64,000 nucleotides of DNA from Chitinophaga pinensis (GTDB taxonomy: Bacteria > Bacteroidota > Bacteroidia > NS11-12g > UBA9320). Each line of letters opens with the position of its first letter. The first letter of the stretch is position 1. Shown in pieces: positions 33,757 to 63,667 of the stretch. The notes under the pieces are model-generated. The model had not been told where the DNA came from. It did no database searches and saw nothing but the letters and a program-made list of their open reading frames with translations. The DNA is taken from positions 30,973 to 94,972 of the forward strand of contig CAMDSC010000008.1 of assembly GCA_945907065.1 (NCBI GenBank), given 5' to 3'. The translations under genes were made by a program, and so were the position numbers.

Positions 33757-35745
33757 ATGAAACTAACATCTACTATTCTACTATTAATTTTATGTGCTTT
33801 TGGTTATGAACTCAGAGCGCAAGCTGCTTCCTCTAAAGATGCAAGTGTTCAGGCTTCGGTTGAAGTTAATAAAACTACCCCTTCTATAAAAATCAAATGG
33901 CCCTACATTTCTGGTATTACCAAGTATAGCATTTATAGAAAAACAAAGGATGAAACCTCTTGGGGTACAATAAAAGGAACTGTTAGTGGAACCGATACAT
34001 TTTGGATAGATACAGATGTAAAAGTTGGAAACGTTTATGAATATAATATTTTAAAAGTTGTAGGCACTCAAGATATTGGGGTTACATATATCTTAAGTGG
34101 AATTGAAATTCCTGTAGTTCATTCACGTGGAAATGCTTTGGTAGTAGTTGAAAAAAGTTTAGCAACATCAATAGCTACAGAATTGGATGGTTACTATAAA
34201 GATATTGCTGCCGATGGCTGGAAAGTATATTCCATTCAGGTTTTAAAAACCGATTCTATCCAAAAAGTAAGACGGGAAATTCAAAAGATAAATACTCAAT
34301 CTGGTGGAATTAAATCATTAATTATTATAGGGCATGTTCCGGTTCCATATTCTGGTGATTTTGGTCAAGGAAATTACAGTTCAGCCCCTGATGGTCATGT
34401 TCCTGATCATAATGGAGCATGGCCCACAGATTCCTATTATGCTATTGATTATGACTCATGGAATGATGCAGGAACAAATAACGGAGCTTCAAGGGCTGAA
34501 AATAAAAATTTGCCTAATGATAACAAATGGGATGAAACTCAATTACCTGGTGTTGTTAAATATTATAATGGCAGAATCGACCTTTCCAATATGTCAAAAT
34601 TTGTAAAAACAGAAGCCGAACTTACCAAACAATACATTAAAAAAGCCCACGACTTCCGATATAAAATTACTCAAACAGTTGAAAAAGGTGTAATTGATGA
34701 AAACTTTAGTGGCCCTTCCTATGGTTATTTTGCAAGTTCTGCATGGCGAAATTTTTCAGTTATGTTTGGTCCAAAGAATATAGTTGAAGCCGATTTTTTA
34801 ACAACTTGCAAAAATGAAAATCTCCTTTTTTCTTATGGAGTGGGTGCGGGCTCATATCAATCTTGCAATGGTATTGGCACTACCGATGATTTTGTAACTA
34901 ATAAAGGAGCTATTTTTAATATGCTTTTTGGAAGTTATTTTGGAGATTGGGATAATGCTGATAATATCCTTCGTGCCCCTTTGGCATCACCAGAAAATGG
35001 ATTGACAAATGCCTGGAGTGGTCGTCCTTACTCTCAAAATCATCAAATGGCGCTTGGCGAACCTATCGGTTATTGTGCAATGGTTACACAAAATAATATT
35101 GGAACATACGCTTATAATGTTTTTGCTAATATTGTTTCCATTGGATTAATGGGAGATCCTACTTTACGTTTGCACATGGTAGCACCTCCAACAAACGTTA
35201 ATGCTACAGCACTAACTGAAAAAAAATCAGTTAATATAAGTTGGACAGCATCTACAGAACCTGGAGTTTTAGGATATTATATTTACCGCTCAGGAAACCC
35301 ATTAAGTAATAATTATCCAATTAACTCTATTCCAATCACAGGAACATCATATATAGATAATGCCCCTTTTCAAGGTACAAATTACTATTTGGTAAAAACT
35401 GTGAAACTTACAACTTCTGCAAGTGGTTCATATTTAAATTTAAGTCATGGTAGTGAGGCCAATGTTACTAATATTATTGGTAATCCAGCGTCAATCAATA
35501 CTATTGCAAAGCAAACTTTAGAAGTATATCCAAATCCGTCAAAAGATGCTATTATATTAAAGTTTTCATCCTATACAAATAATAATAAAATAGAAATTTT
35601 CAACTCTCAAGGCGTATTGGTTAAATCAATTGAAACAACTATCAATAATAATCTCACATCTGAAACTATTTATATTTCAGACCTTTCTTCAGGTTTCTAT
35701 TATATTAAAGCCGGTGCAATTAGCGTAAAATTTATTAAAGAATAG
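33757..35745 (+). CDS. T9SS-exported C25/gingipain-fold-like protein without catalytic dyad
   Basis: 662 residues: signal peptide 1-22, a fibronectin-III-like domain (about 30-115), a large core (about 120-475), a second FN3 domain (about 480-575) and a type-A T9SS tail (LEVYPNPSKDAIIL ... GFYYIKAG). The core follows the layout of peptidase family C25: a helix pair, the strand SLIIIGHVPVPYSG, then GAWPTDSYYAID, YNGRIDLSNM and LTKQYIKKAHDFR. Where gingipains have the catalytic GHG and the SC/AC-NGDF Cys, this protein has SYGVGAGSYQSC and NMLFGSYFGDW. It is therefore probably not a cysteine protease, or uses other residues. The fold assignment is by eye. Confidence 0.6.
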   Translation: MKLTSTILLLILCAFGYELRAQAASSKDASVQASVEVNKTTPSIKIKWPYISGITKYSIYRKTKDETSWGTIKGTVSGTDTFWIDTDVKVGNVYEYNILKVVGTQDIGVTYILSGIEIPVVHSRGNALVVVEKSLATSIATELDGYYKDIAADGWKVYSIQVLKTDSIQKVRREIQKINTQSGGIKSLIIIGHVPVPYSGDFGQGNYSSAPDGHVPDHNGAWPTDSYYAIDYDSWNDAGTNNGASRAENKNLPNDNKWDETQLPGVVKYYNGRIDLSNMSKFVKTEAELTKQYIKKAHDFRYKITQTVEKGVIDENFSGPSYGYFASSAWRNFSVMFGPKNIVEADFLTTCKNENLLFSYGVGAGSYQSCNGIGTTDDFVTNKGAIFNMLFGSYFGDWDNADNILRAPLASPENGLTNAWSGRPYSQNHQMALGEPIGYCAMVTQNNIGTYAYNVFANIVSIGLMGDPTLRLHMVAPPTNVNATALTEKKSVNISWTASTEPGVLGYYIYRSGNPLSNNYPINSIPITGTSYIDNAPFQGTNYYLVKTVKLTTSASGSYLNLSHGSEANVTNIIGNPASINTIAKQTLEVYPNPSKDAIILKFSSYTNNNKIEIFNSQGVLVKSIETTINNNLTSETIYISDLSSGFYYIKAGAISVKFIKE

Positions 35746-36034: not shown

Positions 36035-37939
36035 ATGAAATTATTAGGCTTAATTATTGTATTCTTAACTCTAGAATTAGCCGCTCAAACATCCAAAGAT
36101 TTTGCTGTTCATGCTTGGGTAGTTGTAAACAAAACAACTCCTTCAATTACGATAAAATGGCCCCTATTAACGGATGTGGTCAATTACAAAATATACCGAA
36201 AAGCAAAAACAGAAACATCCTGGGGTACTACCACAAAAGCTGTGGCTGCAGGCACCGATACCATGTGGACTGATACATACGTAAAAGTAGGAATAGAATA
36301 TGAATATTACATCGAAAAAGTAAAAGCAGATTTATCCAATGGCTTCACCTACATACTGAGTGGTATTGAAATTCCCGCAATTCATAATAGAGGCAATGTG
36401 TTGGTAGTGGTTGAAAAATTAATAGCCGACTCTATAACCACCGAATTATACTCATATTATAGAGATTTGGCTGCCGATGGTTGGAATGTTTTTTCAATTA
36501 CTGTATCAAAAACCGATTCCATCCAAAAAGTAAAACGATCAATAAAAGCAATGAATAATCAAATTGGCGGTATTAAATCATTGGTAATAGTGGGCCACGT
36601 TCCGGTTCCTTATTCCGGTAATTTTGCTCCTGATGGTCATAGCGATCATTCTGGAGTTTGGCCTACTGATGCCTATTATACTATTGATTATGACCAGTGG
36701 GCTGATGCCATTACTAAGGTATCAGGAATTACCCGTACTGAAAACCAAAATTTACCAAATGATGGTAAATGGGACAATAGTATATTGCCAGGTATAGTAA
36801 AATATCAAACAGGGCGTATTGATTTATCCAATATGTCAAAATTCTCGAAAACTGAAACCCAACTTACCAAACAATACATTAAAAAAGCCCATGATTTTAG
36901 ATATAAAATTACCAAAACTGTTGAAAAAGGTATAGTAGACGATAATTTTTCATACACCCTCGGATCATTTGGAAGCACCGGATGGAGAGATTTTTCAGTC
37001 ATGTTTGGCCCAAAGAATGTTTCTGACCAAGATTACCTTACCACCTGTCGTAAAGAAAATGTACTTTTTGCTTATGGTGCCGGTGATGGGACGTATCAAA
37101 GTTGCAATGGTATTGGAACCACGGATTCATTCGTAAATAGCAATGGAGCAATTTTTAATATGCTTTTTGGAAGCTACTTTGGTGATTGGGATAATGCCAA
37201 TAATTTACTTCGTGCCCCATTGGCATCAAATAAAAACGGACTTACAGTTGCTTGGAGCGGACGACCATATTGGGCAAATCACGCCATGGCACTTGGAGAA
37301 CCTATAGGTTATTGTGCATTGAAAACACAAAATAATACAGGAACTTATAAAGATAATTTATATAAAAATACTGTTCCAATAGGTCTTATGGGGGATCCAA
37401 CTTTGCGTTTGCACATTATTGCTCCTCCTACCAATTTTAATGTTTCAGCTAAAAATAATAATACAGCTGTTAGTCTTTCTTGGACAGCATCTGCCGAATC
37501 AGGTATTTCAGGCTATTATATTTACCGTTCTAATAAACCTTATGGCAATTACTCTTTAATCAATTCAACACCCATTACCGATACTTCTTTTATAGATAAA
37601 GGGGCTAATGATACCAATTACTATTTTGTTAAAACCTTAAAATTAACTACTTCGGCAAGTGGGTCTTATTATAATTTAAGCCAAGGAACTTCTGCATTTA
37701 TTACCGGTATAACCTCAAGTGCCAATATTACTGTGGTTACTAAAAATGCAACTATTTATTTAGATACAACAGGTAATGCCAGTCTCACACCTTCACAAAT
37801 TGATAATGGTTCTTACAGCAGTTGTTGCAGTATCTCTAGTTATTGTTTAAATAAAACCACCTTTAATTACACCTCCGTAGGTAATAATTCAGTTAGTCTT
37901 AAAGTTACCGATGTCAATAAAAATTACGTTCAGCAGTAG
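36035..37939 (+). pseudogene. Second C25-like T9SS protein, 5' part of a frameshifted gene
   Basis: 634 residues in this frame; a close paralogue of the preceding gene over nearly its whole core (same PTDAYYTIDYD, GRIDLSNMSKF, LTKQYIKKAHDFRYKI, GSYFGDWDNANN blocks), with the same loss of the His/Cys dyad. After the second FN3 domain it enters HYR-like beta repeats (ITVVTKNATIYLD ...) and runs into a TAG at 37937. The same protein clearly continues in another frame from about 37930, so one base seems to be missing within 37919-37936, which contains an A5 run. The paralogue ends here in a sorting tail; in this gene the tail lies in the next fragment. Confidence 0.75.
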
Positions 37940-53326: not shown

Positions 53327-53878
53327 TTGCTATTCAAAGAAGAGTTTTCAGATATAATAATTTCAGGTGCAGGGCCAGCAGGTTGTTCGGCTTCTATGTT
53401 TTTATCTAAACAAGGAATAAAACACACTCTAATTGAAAAAGCCGTATTTCCACGTGATAAAATTTGCGGCGATGCTATAAGCGGAAAAGTGTTGACAATT
53501 CTTGAAGCTTTTGATAAAAAAGCATCTGAAGAAATTTCAAATACACCAAATATTTTCAATCCCTGTAAAGGAATAATTTTTGTTTCGCCCAATGGTACCA
53601 AGCTTTCCATACCTTTTAAGCATGAATATAAAACGGGCGACAAAGCTCCGGGATATTTAGCCAAACGTTTAGATTTTGATAATTTTTTGTTTATCAAAAT
53701 ACGTTCACCTTTTTGCCATTGCATTGAAAACTGTGAATTGAAAGAGATTGAAAAGATTTCAAAAAGTTTAAATATTACAGTAGCGCATAAATCTATAAAA
53801 ACAACAATAAACACAAAATTACTAATATCAGCAGATGGTAGCCGTTCACTGGCGGCCCGAAAATTAGGAGGAATTTAG
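53327..53878 (+). pseudogene. FAD-dependent geranylgeranyl-reductase-like oxidoreductase, 5' part
   Basis: Begins at a TTG (53327) with the Rossmann FAD loop ISGAGPAGCSASMFL and the redox-family motif FPRDKICGDAISGK (the PxDKxCG-like motif of geranylgeranyl reductases), then GDKAPGYLAKRLDFDNFL and the ISADGSRSLAARKLGG motif. The frame is stopped by TAG at 53876-53878, but the same frame continues as recognisable protein (IDNNHYSGGIRAYYNR). So the gene is interrupted by one nonsense codon at a position where relatives would have an ordinary residue. TAG is a normal stop elsewhere in the window (e.g. aroA, aroC, rqcH), so recoding is unlikely. Confidence 0.8.
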
Positions 53879-54580
53879 ATTGATAATAACCATTATTCAG
53901 GTGGAATACGAGCCTATTATAATAGGATTAAAGACTTGAATAAGGAAGGTTATATTGAATTGATTTTAAAAAAAAACTACCAACCGGGTTATTTCTGGAT
54001 ATTTCCATTACCCGATGGCAAGGCCAATGTAGGAGCTGGAATGCTGACCAAAGAAATTAGCAAACGGCGAGTGGATTTAAAAAAAATGCTAATGGATACC
54101 ATTGAAAATGAACCTGAAATTTCTAGGCGATTTGAAGGAGCCATTTTACAAGATAAAATACAGGGTTGGGGATTGCCTTTAGGTTCTAAAAAACGAAAAC
54201 TGAGCGGAGATAATTTTATTCTTTGTGGTGATGCGGCTTCGTTGATTGATCCATTTACCGGCGAAGGAATCGCTCCTGCAATGCTAAGCGGAAAAATTGC
54301 AGCTAATATTGTTAAAAAAGCTATTGAAAAAAATGATTTCTCAGCTACTTTTTTAAACCAATACGATAATGAGCTTTATAAAAAAACGTGGGGAGAAACC
54401 CGCTTAAGTTATATGCTTCAAAAATTGACTCAATGGCCTTGGTTATTTAATTTTGTGGTTGGTAAAGCATCACGAAACAAGGAACTACAAAAAACTATTA
54501 CCAGTATGTTTGCTGATGTAGATATTCGAAAGCAGTTTACAAATCCAATGTTTTATTTAAGGCTATTATTTAAAGGATAG
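53879..54580 (+). pseudogene. FAD-dependent geranylgeranyl-reductase-like oxidoreductase, 3' part
   Basis: Same frame as the 5' part, right after the TAG; an ATG-like restart codon is not present before TTG at 53936. It contains the FWIFPLPDGKANVGAGML strand and the second FAD motif FILCGDAASLIDPFTGEGI, in which GDAA contacts the ribityl chain, as in geranylgeranyl reductase and related halogenase-fold enzymes. The full protein would be about 417 residues. It probably reduces isoprenoid or unsaturated lipid chains. It could be translated as an inactive fragment only. Confidence 0.78.
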
Positions 54581-57904: not shown

Positions 57905-57977
57905 GGACTCGTGGCTTAATGGATATAGCATCTGACTACGGATCAGAAGGTTGGGGGTTCGAGTCCCTCCGAGTCCA
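57905..57977 (+). tRNA. tRNA-Arg (anticodon ACG)
   Basis: 73 bases folding as a cloverleaf: acceptor stem GGACTCG / CGAGTCC, D arm with GGATATAGC, anticodon stem TCTGA / TCAGA with loop CTACGGA (anticodon ACG, read as inosine-CG, arginine CGN), T arm GGGGGTTCGAGTCCCTC containing the GTTCGA consensus. Discriminator A at 57977; CCA is not encoded and must be added. It is followed by a terminator hairpin and then by the accessory region. Confidence 0.96.
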
Positions 57978-57989
57978 CTTTTTAATACC

Positions 57990-58134: not shown

Positions 58135-58437
58135 TTATGGCTCATTTTTGTTTTTGTTAAATGAGTAGCTTAAACTAACAAAAATGAAATGAAGTTGAAT
58201 AAAATAATATCGATACGTAACGTTTGCCTCACCTTCAAGCAATCTATAGCCAATGTTTCCTTGTAGATTTTTAGTGAAAATATATCTTCCGGATAATGAA
58301 AGGTCAATTGCTCTACCTTTACTTGCAGCTATAAATTCTCCGAAAAAATCAACTCCTGTTTTTTTAGATATATCCCACTTGGCTAATAGGTTGATAAGAG
58401 GAGCGAAACCAATACTAAAATTTTCATTATTAGAGAT
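58135..58437 (-). pseudogene. Truncated 3' end of an outer-membrane beta-barrel protein
   Basis: On the minus strand one frame stays open for 100 codons from 58437 to a TAA at 58135: ISNNENFSIGFAPLINLLAKW ... GVDFFGEFIAASKG, LSLSGRYIFTKNLQGNIGYR, YYFIQLHFIFVSLSYSFNK (cited in parts). Alternating aromatic strands with G-Y-R and L-S-Y-S-F endings are those of a porin-like barrel. The frame starts after a stop and has no initiation codon, so the 5' end is gone; the break lies where the accessory genes begin. Confidence 0.6.
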
Positions 58438-58596
58438 CTAAGTACTATTTATAATAGCAAGGGAGCAAAAAATAACTTTTAATAAGCTGATCGCGGGTTT
58501 TGCTAGCAACTGAATTTATTGTGGTCGAATCACTTGCTTAAACAAGATTATTTTAATAACTTTACATAGTTTTTTTTTAAAAAATATTTGCATCAT

Positions 58597-59760
58597 ATGT
58601 TTAAGAACGATTCAGTTAATTTAGAAATTTTAAAAAAGCGCGCTTTTAACTTAAGATGGGCAACTTTGTCTGAAGGGGTAATACCATTAACGGCTGCAGA
58701 TCCAGATTTTCCATGTGCCCCCGAAATTTCAGAAGCGATTAGTTCTTTTGCCAAGGATCATTATTATTCTTATGGTCCTCCAGAAGGGTTATCTGATTTT
58801 AAAGAAAGTATTGCAACTTATTTTAAGGTAAAACGAAATGTCCCTGTTTCTCCAGACTTTTCTTTTCCTGTGAACAGCGCTGCTAATGGTATATACTTGA
58901 CTTGCAAGGCATTTCTTTCTCCTGGAGATGAAGCAATAATTTTTGATCCAGTAGATTTTTTATTTCGCTATTCAATTGAATCAGTAAATGCTAAAGCCAT
59001 TCCATTTCCAATTCCTCCTGGAACAATTAAAGTTGATTTTGAAGAACTTGAACAGCTGATTACCAATAAAACTAAGATGATTTGTCTTTGTAACCCTTTG
59101 AATCCAACGGGCAAAGTTTTCACAAAAGAAGAATTGACTCAACTTGGTGAAATTGCGTATAAACACAAACTAATTATTTTATCAGATGAAATCTGGAGTG
59201 ATATTGTTTTTAAACCAGCGGTATTTACTAGTATTGCTTCGATTAATGATGAGATAAGAAATCAAACCGTTACAATAACAGGATTCAGTAAATCCTTTGG
59301 TTTAGCTGGTTTAAGAATCGGAGCTGTCATCGCTCACAACAAACAACATTACGAACTTTTAATGGATGCTTCCATGCATTATTCCACCATTCAAGGTGTG
59401 AATGTATTGTCTCAAATCGCCGCAACAACCGCCTTGAATTCCTGCGGATATTGGCTGGATAGTTTTGTCGATCATCTTTCTGTTATGCGGAATTTAGTAG
59501 TCAATGAATTGAATACCATTCCAGGATTCAAATGCATTGCTCCCGATGGGTGTTATGTTGCATTTACAGATATTACTTCAACGAACAAAACAAGTCAAGA
59601 AATTCATGATCTATTATTAAATGAGGCAAAAGTTGCTATTGTTCCAGGATTAAAACAATGGTTCGGTGATGGTGCAGAGGGCTGCATTAGAATGAGTTTT
59701 GCAACATCAGAAGAAATTTTAACTGATGCGCTTGGAAGAATAAAAAAACACTTGAAATGA
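58597..59760 (+). CDS. PLP-dependent aminotransferase / C-S lyase (class I/II, MalY-PatB-like)
   Basis: 387 residues from the ATG at 58597 (a TTG nine bases earlier is possible). PLP fold type I: FSFPVNSAANGI and the Asp-type loop IFDPVDF, CNPLNPTGKVFTKEEL (Asn binding the cofactor), LSDEIWSDIV (Asp), and the Schiff-base Lys in TGFSKSFGLAGLRIGA near residue 231. The DEIWSD and start motif PLTAADPDFP resemble MalY/PatB cystathionine beta-lyases as well as aminotransferases, so the reaction could be C-S bond cleavage. Its last codons overlap the ATG of the flavoprotein fusion gene by 4 bases (ATGA), indicating translational coupling. Confidence 0.85.
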   Translation: MFKNDSVNLEILKKRAFNLRWATLSEGVIPLTAADPDFPCAPEISEAISSFAKDHYYSYGPPEGLSDFKESIATYFKVKRNVPVSPDFSFPVNSAANGIYLTCKAFLSPGDEAIIFDPVDFLFRYSIESVNAKAIPFPIPPGTIKVDFEELEQLITNKTKMICLCNPLNPTGKVFTKEELTQLGEIAYKHKLIILSDEIWSDIVFKPAVFTSIASINDEIRNQTVTITGFSKSFGLAGLRIGAVIAHNKQHYELLMDASMHYSTIQGVNVLSQIAATTALNSCGYWLDSFVDHLSVMRNLVVNELNTIPGFKCIAPDGCYVAFTDITSTNKTSQEIHDLLLNEAKVAIVPGLKQWFGDGAEGCIRMSFATSEEILTDALGRIKKHLK

Positions 59761-61700
59761 AAGCAGTTATAATTGGTGGAGGTATTGCAGGTCTTACCAT
59801 GGGACTAAAGTTGCAAGCAGAAAATTGGGAGGTTGTGATATGTGAGAAGTCATCTTCTTTACCCAAAAGTGGTCATGCCTTTTTGATACATTATGATGGA
59901 CTTTCAGTACTATCCGAACTCTTTATTGATACGAAATCACGTCTATTAAAGCAACACGTCAATCTTTTTATCCTTAGAAGACCTGATAATCAAGAAAAAA
60001 TTAAAATAAAGTTAAATGATTGGTATTGCTTAAAACGAACAGAGATGATTTCATTTCTTCATTCGTTATCTACGCTTGAAATATTTATACAAGGAAGATC
60101 CTTTTCTAATTTTCTATATCAAAATAATAAAGTAGTGGCTGCTGTTTTTGAGAATGGAGACATCGAATATGGAGATGTATTTATTGGTGCTGATGGAAGT
60201 AATTCAAAGGTGAGAGATTCGATTTTTGGTGAAACAAATTTTAGTCCTGTTGAGGTAAATGAAATAGTTGGCACTTCCAAAATAATGAATAGAAACGGGG
60301 AGCATCGTATTTTTCAAAAAATACAAAGTGATGATAAAGGATTAGCTTTTGGATATAATCCAACTTCTTCTGATGAAGAAGTATGGTTCCTACAATATGA
60401 TGTAAATTTATCCGATGGCAGCGAAGAAAATAATCCCGAAAGCTTAAAAGCATTTTGTTTAGAAATGATGAAAGATTTCCCTATTGATGCGAAAACGATT
60501 TTAGATTCCACAGATTTTAAAAGTGCATATATCTGGAAAACACGGGATTTTGATTTACTTCCAAGTTTTCACAAAGAAAATGTTGTTTTAATTGGTGATG
60601 CTGCACATTTAACTCTTCCTTTTACGAGTGCAGGAACAACGAATGCACTTTTAGATGCAAAGTGTTTATCTGAATCATTACGTGAATTTAAAACTATTGA
60701 AGAGGCTTTTACTAATTATTATCAAACTAGAGTACTAGAAGTCCAAAGTCATATAGACCAAGGCCGGCTATTAAAAAAAATATTTTTAAATCCTAAAGAA
60801 AACAATGAACGAGGCTTTTTATTGCCTTTAATGTCTGATTCTAATAAACAGAAATCGGCTATTATTGAAAAGCCATTAAAGATAATCTATTATACAGATC
60901 CTCAATGCTCAGCTTCTTGGCTATTTCAACCGATTCTTCGAAAGTTAAAATTGGAATACGGCGATTATCTAACTATTGATTATCATATTGGGGTGGGTGG
61001 GCCATCATGGGAACAATCTAACATCGGCAGCATTAAAACGCCATTAGATGCTGCGAAACACTGGGCAGAATTAAGCGCGTCTCAAAACATGATTTTAGAT
61101 GGCGATGTTTGGTTAGAGGGCCCATTGTATTCTTCTTATTTGCCGTTAATTGCTTTTAAAGCTGCGCAATTACAAGACAGCGATAAGGCAATTACTTTTT
61201 TACGACGATTGAAAGAATTAGTGTTCTTGGAAAAAAAGAATATCACTAGGTGGGGAATAATTGAAAATGCGGCTCTTTCAAGTGGTATAGATGCTGCCGT
61301 ATTAAAGGAAGACTGCACAGGTAAAGGATCTCAATTGCTTGAAGCTGATTTAGAATTAGCGAAAGATTTAAAAATAACAATGTTTCCAACGTTAATCTTT
61401 TTAAAGGATGGTATCGCCTTTAATAGAATAAATGGTGTTCAAACATATGAAAATTTCGAAGAAATTATTCTTGAGGTAATTCCTAATGCAGTAAAGAATA
61501 CAATTAATTGCAGTGCCGAGGCGTTATTTTCTTTATATCCCAATATGACTGAATCTGAATTTTCTTTTATTTTGAATATATCAATTGCAGAGTCACGCAT
61601 ATTGCTGAATGACTTATATGATAAAGGTAAAATTGATAATTATAGGATTAAAAATGGAACTGTTTGGAAGGTTAAATTATCCTCTAAAATTTCAATTTGA
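59757..61700 (+). CDS. FAD-dependent monooxygenase fused to a DsbA-like thioredoxin domain
   Basis: 647 residues. Residues 1-355 are a group A flavin monooxygenase: FAD loop VIIGGGIAGLTMGLKL, IGADGSNSKVR and the GD motif LIGDAAHLTLPFTSAGTTNA (cited whole). Residues about 370-580 are a DsbA/FrnE-like thioredoxin fold starting KPLKIIYYTDPQCSASW, followed by a winged-helix-like tail (about 590-647). In the thioredoxin part the usual CxxC is CSAS, so only the first Cys (about 383) remains. The same unit, with an intact CSSC, is encoded as a separate lipoprotein next door. No signal peptide, so cytoplasmic. Likely acts with the PLP enzyme upstream. Confidence 0.88.
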   Translation: MKAVIIGGGIAGLTMGLKLQAENWEVVICEKSSSLPKSGHAFLIHYDGLSVLSELFIDTKSRLLKQHVNLFILRRPDNQEKIKIKLNDWYCLKRTEMISFLHSLSTLEIFIQGRSFSNFLYQNNKVVAAVFENGDIEYGDVFIGADGSNSKVRDSIFGETNFSPVEVNEIVGTSKIMNRNGEHRIFQKIQSDDKGLAFGYNPTSSDEEVWFLQYDVNLSDGSEENNPESLKAFCLEMMKDFPIDAKTILDSTDFKSAYIWKTRDFDLLPSFHKENVVLIGDAAHLTLPFTSAGTTNALLDAKCLSESLREFKTIEEAFTNYYQTRVLEVQSHIDQGRLLKKIFLNPKENNERGFLLPLMSDSNKQKSAIIEKPLKIIYYTDPQCSASWLFQPILRKLKLEYGDYLTIDYHIGVGGPSWEQSNIGSIKTPLDAAKHWAELSASQNMILDGDVWLEGPLYSSYLPLIAFKAAQLQDSDKAITFLRRLKELVFLEKKNITRWGIIENAALSSGIDAAVLKEDCTGKGSQLLEADLELAKDLKITMFPTLIFLKDGIAFNRINGVQTYENFEEIILEVIPNAVKNTINCSAEALFSLYPNMTESEFSFILNISIAESRILLNDLYDKGKIDNYRIKNGTVWKVKLSSKISI

Positions 61701-61713
61701 GGAAGCGACTTGT

Positions 61714-62715
61714 TTAGCGGCTAGTATTTTTCAACGCCCAAATTGCTCCGTTTTTTGTTGCCAGTTTTTCTAATTTTCCGTTTGCAGTTAAGTCATCTAA
61801 ATATTTTTCACATTCGTTTCGTGGTTTTTCTGTCAGTTCGGAAAATTCTTTTGCTGTCAATGAATGATATTTTGAAAATACTGCATTCCATGTTTTGTCA
61901 TAAATGTTTTTGGTAGCAGAAGGATACAATTTAACCAAAACATTCTCAAACGTGCTGTATGGTTTCGAACCATAAACCATTTCTTTATTTCCTGTTGAGT
62001 CTGTAAAAAACATTGTAGGGAAACCCCTTACGCCTAATTCTCTACCTAATTTTAAATCTTCTTCAAAAAGTTCTTTTGCTTTTCCTTCGTAATCGGCTTT
62101 GAACTTAATAATGTCAAGTCCAACCTTTTTTCCTGCTAATTCTAAATATTCCCATTTTGTAATGTTCTTTTTTTGAAGAAAAACCATTTCTCGTATTTCA
62201 CGAAGAAACAAAATTGCCTTTTCATTGTCTTGTATTTGTGCGGCCTTAAATGCAATTGAAGGTGGATAAGACGAATGCAATGGGTCTTCTAACCAAACGT
62301 CTCCGACCATGGGCATATCATAAAAAATGCTTGCTTCGTCCCAATGATGAGCTACGTCAGAAGGCTTGCTAATTCCTCCACTATTATAACTCCAATCACG
62401 AAGTAGGCCTCCCATTCTGTATTCAACCTCAATGTTGTTTCCATACTCTAATTTTAGCTTTCGTAGTTGTGGTTCAATGCCCCAACAAGAAGAACATATA
62501 GGGTCGGTATAATAAATTATTTTTATAGGTTTTATTCTTGCTTTTTCCAAACTACTGTTTGCTGAACTTGTTTTGTTAGTTGGTATTTCACAAATACCAC
62601 TTTCAGGGTCGCATATTAAAGGGTTTTTAATTTCCATTTTCTTTTTTGTTTGAGTTTGACAAGCTAAATTGCCAATTGCGAATATTGTGATTAAAATAAG
62701 ATAAGTTATTTTCAT
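61714..62715 (-). CDS. DsbA/FrnE-like thioredoxin-fold lipoprotein
   Basis: 333 residues from ATG 62715; a start at 62751 would add 12 residues before the signal. The signal MKITYLILITIFAIGNLAC has a lipobox (NLAC). After a linker with an ICDPESGICEIP cysteine pair, a DsbA-type domain begins IKIIYYTDPICSSCWGIEP with an active CSSC, then LRKLKLEYG, AHHWDEASI, VWLEDPLHSSYPPSIAFK, and the cis-Pro loop VRGFPTMFF. A winged-helix-like tail (LTAKEFSELTEK ... NGKLEKLATKNGAIW) follows. It is related along its whole length to the C-terminal part of the convergent fusion protein. Probably a membrane-anchored thiol oxidoreductase. Confidence 0.87.
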   Translation of the reverse strand: MKITYLILITIFAIGNLACQTQTKKKMEIKNPLICDPESGICEIPTNKTSSANSSLEKARIKPIKIIYYTDPICSSCWGIEPQLRKLKLEYGNNIEVEYRMGGLLRDWSYNSGGISKPSDVAHHWDEASIFYDMPMVGDVWLEDPLHSSYPPSIAFKAAQIQDNEKAILFLREIREMVFLQKKNITKWEYLELAGKKVGLDIIKFKADYEGKAKELFEEDLKLGRELGVRGFPTMFFTDSTGNKEMVYGSKPYSTFENVLVKLYPSATKNIYDKTWNAVFSKYHSLTAKEFSELTEKPRNECEKYLDDLTANGKLEKLATKNGAIWALKNTSR

Positions 62716-62855
62716 TTTTTTCAAGTGTCTCACTGCCGAAGGCTGTTCCATGGTAAATTTACCAACTCTGGTAGGCTCTTTTAAAGCAGATTTTTCCCTT
62801 CATTTATTATGTTCAACAAATCATTTTGGGTAAACGTATAGAAATAAATCCCTCA

Positions 62856-63449
62856 TTACATTTTGTCAGGATTAATGGGTGCTGGAACTATATTCTTAAC
62901 AGGGTTGATACTTTTTAAGTACATAAATATTGCATGAACATCATCATCTTTTAAACTTTCATAATTATACCAAGGCATCGGAGGCAAAAGCATTCGCCCA
63001 CCGTCTAAACCTTTGAATTTACCTTCTCTAATTGCCTTTTTGAATTGTTCCTCTGTCCAGTTGCCTATCCCTGTTACGTCAGGTGTTAAATTGCCTGCGA
63101 ATGAAACACCCCAAGGTCCGGCAGAAGCTGTCAGGTCGGGATAAAACATGGCAAAACCTTCTTTAATCAACTTGCTATCAAATTTTATAATCGGTCTGTC
63201 TGAAGGATACCCCGACAACATTAATTCAGGAATAATTTCGGGTCCGTTGGCCCCCATTTTTTTTGGAGAATGGCAGTCGTTGCAGCCAATTACGGTTACA
63301 AGGTATTCGCCATGTTTAACAACATCTTCGGGTTTTATAGTAACTGTAGTTATTTCTATATTTGATTTTTGATTGTTGTTTGAGCAAGATGAGATACAAA
63401 GAGTAAAGCTTATTGCTGTTAATACTATAATTAGAAAATTTTGTTTCAT
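62856..63449 (-). CDS. Monohaem cytochrome c lipoprotein
   Basis: 197 residues. Signal with a lipobox-like ISSC (Cys 22). The haem site is VIGCNDCHSPK (Cys56, Cys59, His60), early in the domain. A candidate distal Met lies in GRMLLPPMPWYNYESL, and the helix DVHAIFMYLKS near the end fits class I cytochrome c. It resembles the small diheme-or-monoheme c cytochromes that pass electrons to oxidases or dehydrogenases. It lies 140 bases upstream of the DsbA-like gene on the same strand, so both may be expressed together in the periplasm. Confidence 0.88.
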   Translation of the reverse strand: MKQNFLIIVLTAISFTLCISSCSNNNQKSNIEITTVTIKPEDVVKHGEYLVTVIGCNDCHSPKKMGANGPEIIPELMLSGYPSDRPIIKFDSKLIKEGFAMFYPDLTASAGPWGVSFAGNLTPDVTGIGNWTEEQFKKAIREGKFKGLDGGRMLLPPMPWYNYESLKDDDVHAIFMYLKSINPVKNIVPAPINPDKM

Positions 63450-63667
63450 TTTGTTTTATTTTGTGTTTATTAATCAAAAATAGCGAAAATATGTAACTTT
63501 CCATTATAAAAATACAAAAAATTTATCGATTTCCCCAGACCTGAAGCTTGAACTCAGGCGATTTCTTATAACGTCAGTCTGTGAAAAAACCAACACCAAT
63601 AGTAACCCTCCCCAAAATTTGGACAGTTTAAAATTAGAAAATTATTAACTTTAAACTAAAAAACAGA
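63450..63667. other. Non-coding junction with a possible IS end
   Basis: 218 bases with no supported gene. The stretch around 63608-63632 (CCCTCCCCAAAATTTGGACAG in part) resembles terminal sequences I know from IS3-type elements in Bacteroidota, and it lies just before a transposase remnant, so it may be an element end. No matching inverted copy was found. Confidence 0.35.

Follow-up and report, generated by a model that had tools for sequence, protein, structure and literature searches.

One gene in the analyzed stretch of 64,000 nucleotides (the window) joins a group A flavin monooxygenase (FMO) to a DsbA-fold unit (59757..61700, plus strand, 647 aa). The protein belongs to a family of fusions that occurs in two domain orders, is coupled to a gene for a PLP-dependent enzyme and carries an almost universal CxxC motif in its DsbA-fold half, which has been lost in the lineage of the window. 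Tentatively, and with the reservation that this may well prove wrong, the fusion and the PLP enzyme are read as catalyzing a two-step oxidation of an amino-acid-derived, possibly sulfur-bearing molecule, with a DsbA half that is decaying in the window after losing its second cysteine.

The frame 59757-61700 is a single open reading frame without an internal stop. Two Pfam models matched above cut-off, FAD_binding_3 (PF01494) at residues 2-311 (E 2.4e-14, 53.8 bits versus 22) and Thioredoxin_5 (PF13743) at residues 379-567 (E 1.5e-39, 136.1 bits versus 27); the DSBA model of Pfam gave a match below its cut-off. The FMO half comprises approximately residues 1-345 (59757..60791, +). The second half comprises approximately residues 370-639 (60864..61673, +) and consists of a thioredoxin fold and a C-terminal part that aligned to the winged-helix end of YjbH. 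At residues 384-387 (60906..60917, +), where relatives carry CxxC, the window protein reads CSAS and so has only one of the two active-site cysteines of a CxxC thioredoxin-fold oxidoreductase. The preliminary description of this DNA had proposed that an FMO and a DsbA-like unit are combined in one protein, that CSAS replaces CxxC, and that the gene overlaps the PLP gene by ATGA. The single 647-aa frame with its Pfam matches and the residues at 384-387 bear out the first two proposals, and the overlap is correct because the PLP open reading frame ends at 59760 and the fusion starts at 59757.

In the FMO half the GxGxxG motif (G7-G12) and the GD motif (G280-D281-A-A-H284) are conserved, and NAD(P)H-dependent hydroxylation is the activity predicted from its family. 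Foldseek returned HpxO (3rp8). FAD_binding_3, the fold and the GGGIAG and GD motifs are shared with the single-component group A FMOs (HpxO urate hydroxylase, MHPCO, tetracycline destructases, PhzS and TrlE), but in structural alignments the identity to these enzymes is only 18-23%, and among the named NCBIfam equivalogs listed none matched the FMO half at its cut-off. Nearly all VIA-align rows covered the FMO half alone (residues 1-364 in the tool summary) and are therefore uninformative on the YjbH half. Residues E169, Q213 and W260 are each present in 79/79 FMO domains of fusions with the order FMO-YjbH (forward) and in 71/71 of those with the order YjbH-FMO (reverse). The corresponding counts are 16/16, 15/16 and 14/16 for near-solo FMOs and 10/34, 5/34 and 10/34 for far FMOs. 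C91 was found in 75/79 forward FMOs, and reverse FMOs carry a cysteine two positions earlier (position 89, 67/71); both positions lie on the same strand in the predicted model. Solo FMOs mostly lack this cysteine, which was seen at position 91 in 0/16 and at position 89 in 5/16 of the near ones, for which residues were shown.

The DsbA-fold unit is, by structural match and model, specifically YjbH/SpxH-like. The best structure for residues 370-639 was 6ghb_B (E 1.8e-36, aligned to 6ghb residues 23-292), and Foldseek of the modeled half against YjbH gave a TM score of 0.92 by target length. Residues 587-639 of the predicted model, in the C-terminal part, form helices and two strands. The earlier term "DsbA-like" is thus right as to the fold and is better replaced by YjbH/SpxH-like. 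Thioredoxin_5 and the C-terminal part are common to the fused half and YjbH/SpxH (UPF0413; Geobacillus kaustophilus GK0824, PDB 6ghb and 6gho); unlike YjbH/SpxH, the window unit is fused to an FMO, occurs in Bacteroidota beside a PLP gene, and is known here from sequence and model.

To describe the family, proteins of 0.55 to 1.75 times the fusion length were searched with the DsbA half, which gave 292 matches. In all of the best 120, FMO sequence lies ahead of the DsbA part according to profile positions; seven of these are shorter than 560 aa and probably fragments. A genome-locus scan with one genome per species gave 559 confirmed candidates, possibly including solo proteins. The record titles of the best 80 loci name Bacteroidota groups, bar one "uncultured bacterium". 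One frame of at least 560 aa is present in 78 of these 80 loci, so that the FMO and DsbA parts are not separate genes in close relatives; in the two others the gene is broken (L049) or cut at a contig end (L090). The distribution is patchy: with the window's own genome counted, a forward full-length match was found in 2/395 genomes sampled phylum-wide and, among 147 relatives, the forward fusion in seven and the reversed one in three. By record title, the family is also present in the cultured strains Flavobacterium gillisiae, Pedobacter nutrimenti, P. gandavensis and Flectobacillus longus. The end of the window is the end of its contig, 2.3 kb behind the fusion, and the relatives are mostly metagenome-assembled, which could point to an assembly or binning artefact. 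This explanation has next to no probability and is ruled out by independent loci with other flanks: DNA 99.2% identical to the fusion occurs in such assemblies, near-identical intact frames in L041 and L042 mean that the fusion is neither restricted to its own assembly nor made by a contig joint, and the cultured strains carry the family too.

Two further searches with a reversed protein as query led to a comparison set of 248 proteins, which were assigned by profile positions as 120 forward, 71 reverse, 50 FMO only and seven DsbA only. Unrooted trees were calculated for the FMO (54 rows) and the DsbA domain (61 rows), each with 21 of 79 forward rows. Forward rows cluster in both trees (100/100 and 100/98). 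They are joined in the DsbA tree by the solo YjbH-like proteins (100/98), and this branch separates them from all reverse rows. The FMO tree places five solo FMOs with the reverse proteins (99/94), and this combined group neighbors the forward one (95/86). P0207 forms a long branch in both. Because forward and reverse proteins split, mainly in the DsbA tree, the simplest reading suggested by the trees is that the two fusions arose separately. A single ancestral fusion that was later permuted is disfavored, mainly by the DsbA tree; the FMO tree, with forward and reverse groups as neighbors and no more than five solo FMOs on the reverse side, is less clear.

The CxxC motif is present in 118 of the best 120 (of 292) forward proteins. 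The exceptions are P0001, which carries CSAS and is 98% identical in the DsbA half, and P0002 (87%), which lacks 31 residues over the motif. In reverse fusions the motif is readable in 64/71 proteins and is CxxC in 64/64. Among the 78 frames of at least 560 aa of the best 80 loci, 76 carry CxxC, the exceptions being L041 (CSAS) and L042 (CSTS). At L049, DNA identity is 94% over the first 1213 bases, and a stop directly behind the FMO is followed by a degenerate out-of-frame remnant. Among the relatives compared, CSAS, CSTS, the motif deletion and the stop before a degenerate remnant are found in the lineage of the window only. The preliminary description had regarded the single cysteine as a working feature, a claim that could not be sustained given the near-universal CxxC of the family and the graded loss of the DsbA half in this lineage. 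Since CxxC is kept in forward and readable reverse fusions alike, a monothiol site is ruled out as the design of the family. An FMO fusion built with one thiol for thiol-conjugate oxidation would agree with the architecture and the PLP coupling, both of which are real, but the family is a dithiol one and this explanation is very improbable.

Positions conserved in 109 full-length relatives were used to compare the two halves, a definition biased against the window to an equal degree for both. The window departs at 9/71 such positions in the DsbA half (109 other relatives: mean 0.39, maximum 7) and at 1/87 in the FMO half (mean 0.62, maximum 7). Therefore, the DsbA half of the window is likely decaying. 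The other way to account for CSAS is that the half has taken on a new role, in which it works with a single cysteine or has a structural function. Three genomes share full-length CSAS/CSTS frames, with approximately 99% DNA identity of the fusion, the transferred copies that are 97.9-99% identical still have a full-length frame, and S. aureus YjbH, for which PMC7253607 gives the form SXXC, would be a precedent. Repurposing is nevertheless rather improbable, as further conserved positions of the DsbA half have also changed and the half is deleted or broken in close relatives. Between the window and L042, five non-synonymous and one synonymous changes were counted in the DsbA half and five of each in the FMO half; these changes are too few for dN/dS within the lineage to decide. 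An FMO without a DsbA half was also found in genome G765, of a second lineage. It is nested in the forward FMOs beside Pedobacter nutrimenti (100/97), ends at the linker and is preceded by genes for a kinase, a receiver and a PLP enzyme (HK-RR-PLP-FMO); no DsbA remnant was recognizable behind it (best E 0.03).

The gene upstream of the fusion (58597..59760, +) encodes a PLP-dependent enzyme with the aminotransferase class I/II fold (PF00155, 185.4 bits versus a cut-off of 19.7) that is PatB/MalY-like. Its open reading frame was listed from TTG 58588, and the consensus of the relatives begins at the second Met, so the start is likely ATG 58597. The preliminary description had asked whether the coupling of this gene to the fusion recurs in other genomes, and it does: with the window itself excluded, 77 of 81 loci (78 forward, three reverse) have a PLP gene next to the fusion, the encoded enzymes all belonging to a single sequence cluster. 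In 72 of them the PLP gene is directly upstream on the same strand, with a 4-base overlap in 47/72, and in the three reversed loci it is directly downstream. In two further loci it is upstream with a short, probably spurious, opposite-strand frame in between. It is absent at L055, L075, L096 and L104 (4/81). In a fourth reversed locus (L156) a PLP gene was seen by eye directly downstream. Between forward and reverse loci, the PLP enzymes share 40-43% identity. The stretches DEIWsDI and GfSKsyGLAGLRiG are common to the 78 aligned PLP sequences (77 and that of the window), and all keep TGfSK, the lysine of which is presumably the PLP-binding one, as known for the family. The best NCBIfam model was the PatB C-S lyase (TIGR04350), at 229.7 bits below its cut-off of 340. 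The DEI(W/H)xD stretch is shared with PatB/MalY C-S lyases in the PatB alignment, but among solved structures the aminotransferases 1gd9 and 1dju score slightly above PatB.

Among 56 forward loci with sufficient sequence upstream, 15 encode a single-domain receiver at position -2, and 15/15 of these a kinase at -3. The 15 loci fall into a single group, 19 rows in size (86/98; the branch is not starred). Both of these histidine kinases that were scanned contain GAF, PAS and HATPase domains. In 3/3 reverse loci, too, a kinase and a receiver lie next to the fusion, on the opposite strand, and neither is present at the locus of the window. A role in anti-phage defence found no support: PADLOC gave no match for the PLP enzyme, the fusion or the receiver of L107, and a single marginal one (E 7e-4) for the L107 kinase.

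Behind the fusion lie two genes on the minus strand. The first (61714..62751) encodes a free-standing YjbH-like protein with CSSC and a lipoprotein-type N-terminus (PF13743, 185.1 bits) and belongs to the block common to L041, L042 and L049. The second (62856..63449) encodes a small c-type cytochrome-like protein, also with a lipoprotein-type N-terminus (PF00034, 26.3 bits versus a cut-off of 21.3), at the end of the shared block. The kinship of the fused unit with the CSSC lipoprotein, suggested earlier, is confirmed by 44% identity; the genes are 13 bases apart. Of the block of PLP gene, fusion, lipoprotein and cytochrome, the PLP-fusion pair is conserved, and beside the fusion the lipoprotein-cytochrome part was found only in the near-identical lineage of the window. 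Lipoprotein and cytochrome were rejected as conserved partners, with no recurring neighbor cluster outside this lineage.

Solo YjbH-like genes are present in 5/5 genomes known here in which the DsbA half is decayed or missing (G000, G589, G602, G823 and G765) and in 8/53 genomes with an intact fusion (E <= 1e-20). The latter count used 50 of the best 80 loci in one search, a genome found in both searches with identical coordinates being counted once, and incomplete genomes may conceal such genes. Because four of the five genomes share one block by descent, the link rests on two independent lineages. A possible reason for the decay is that the fused DsbA half can wear away where a separate YjbH-like gene exists. 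The solo protein of G765 shows no signal peptide by eye, whereas that of the window has a lipoprotein-type start. Since the latter looks exported, help in trans would need a cytosolic form. Most solo proteins inspected have a Met shortly before a conserved NP(L/I)CD-like stretch, and some start there.

Solo YjbH-like proteins of Bacteroidota (window 61714-62751, L010-L019 and others) have the same CxxC domain and are approximately 41-46% identical to the fused half (L021, 35%). Unlike the fusion, they are separate genes of varied neighborhoods, with products of the lipoprotein type or apparently cytosolic. The N-terminus is of the lipoprotein type or not among the proteins seen (window 61714-62751; L010-L019, L124-L134, L174 5586-6509), and the recurrent Met before an NPLLCDxxTGxC-like stretch may mean two start sites or two localizations. 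By eye, the solo genes of L012, L014, L016 and L010 adjoin HxlR-type regulators, a LigB-type dioxygenase, DoxX, YceI and short-chain dehydrogenases, neighbors that recall quinone or electrophile responses.

The window shares a segment (58406..63457) with the distant genome of L042 at 97.9% DNA identity, and the left edge at 58406 is common to the alignments with L042 and L049. A tRNA-Arg gene (acg; 57905..57978, +) lies approximately 430 bases before this edge. Compared with L041, DNA identity is 99.2% for the fusion, 99.9% for the solo gene and only 74.8% for the PLP gene. For kinship, a window gene taken to be chorismate synthase was compared, which shows 58% identity to its counterparts in G589 (L041) and G823 (L042, partial) and 88% to that of a genus mate. 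Approximately 99% DNA identity of the fusion, set against 58% for chorismate synthase, indicates that the whole block, or its portion behind the PLP gene, moved recently between distant Bacteroidota. In the empty-site comparison genus mates aligned on the tRNA-Arg side only, the window ending downstream. Behind the block of L049 (13440-15533), transposase-like frames were noticed by eye together with the start of a second PLP gene, which is 98% identical in DNA to window 58516-58868.

Group A FMOs use NAD(P)H and O2 to hydroxylate small molecules, CxxC thioredoxin-fold domains act in electron or thiol exchange, and PatB-like enzymes free thiols from cysteine conjugates. By analogy, these roles combined suggest a pathway in which a thiol or disulfide intermediate would be handed between domains, and a sulfur pathway is plausible for the PLP-fusion pair. 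In intact relatives, the CxxC would act in cis within the cytosol and transfer two electrons or a thiol, with the substrate of the FMO or the product of the PLP enzyme as donor or acceptor. In the lineage of the window the FMO may still work without the dithiol, perhaps aided by the neighboring separate YjbH-like protein. Alternatively, the YjbH half could be a docking or protease-adaptor domain, as in SpxH/YjbH-Spx-ClpXP, through which the FMO recruits a regulator or the PLP enzyme, with the cysteines being secondary. The nearest solved relative is YjbH in complex with Spx, and the genome contains one gene of the ArsC/Spx family (PF03960), which may encode an Spx or an arsenate reductase-like protein. 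According to PMC7253607, Spx degradation in B. subtilis and S. aureus can proceed without the cysteines of YjbH, but YjbH functions in Listeria require CXXC. An adaptor would not need a CxxC kept to the extent found in the two fusion types, and no Spx or protease gene recurs among the neighbor clusters of fusion loci; docking is thus unlikely.

The joining of these two domains in both orders, next to one kind of partner gene, is good evidence for a link among the three functions, and therefore an uncharacterized pathway could be tested in cultured hosts. More broadly, though doubtfully, Bacteroidota may have joined a dithiol domain of the YjbH type to a group A FMO at least twice, in opposite orders and nearly always next to one kind of PLP enzyme, in some lineages with histidine kinase and receiver, as part of an undescribed cytosolic pathway in which CxxC would exchange electrons or thiols with flavin hydroxylation, and the fused copy may wear away beside a solo gene. 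If true, a thioredoxin-fold dithiol would be coupled in cis to a single-component flavin hydroxylase, and the YjbH fold, a protease adaptor in Firmicutes, would have been carried into an enzyme setting. No description of such a fusion was found in titles and abstract openings of the openly licensed literature. The copy in the window also calls for caution, as an odd active site in a single genome can mean decay and not design.

Two further features of the window were noticed by eye. A geranylgeranyl-reductase-type flavoprotein is apparently split by a frame break (53327-53878 and 53936-54580), its second frame matching PF22578. The neighboring long frames 33757-35745 and 36035-37939 are similar to each other, an apparent tandem duplication.
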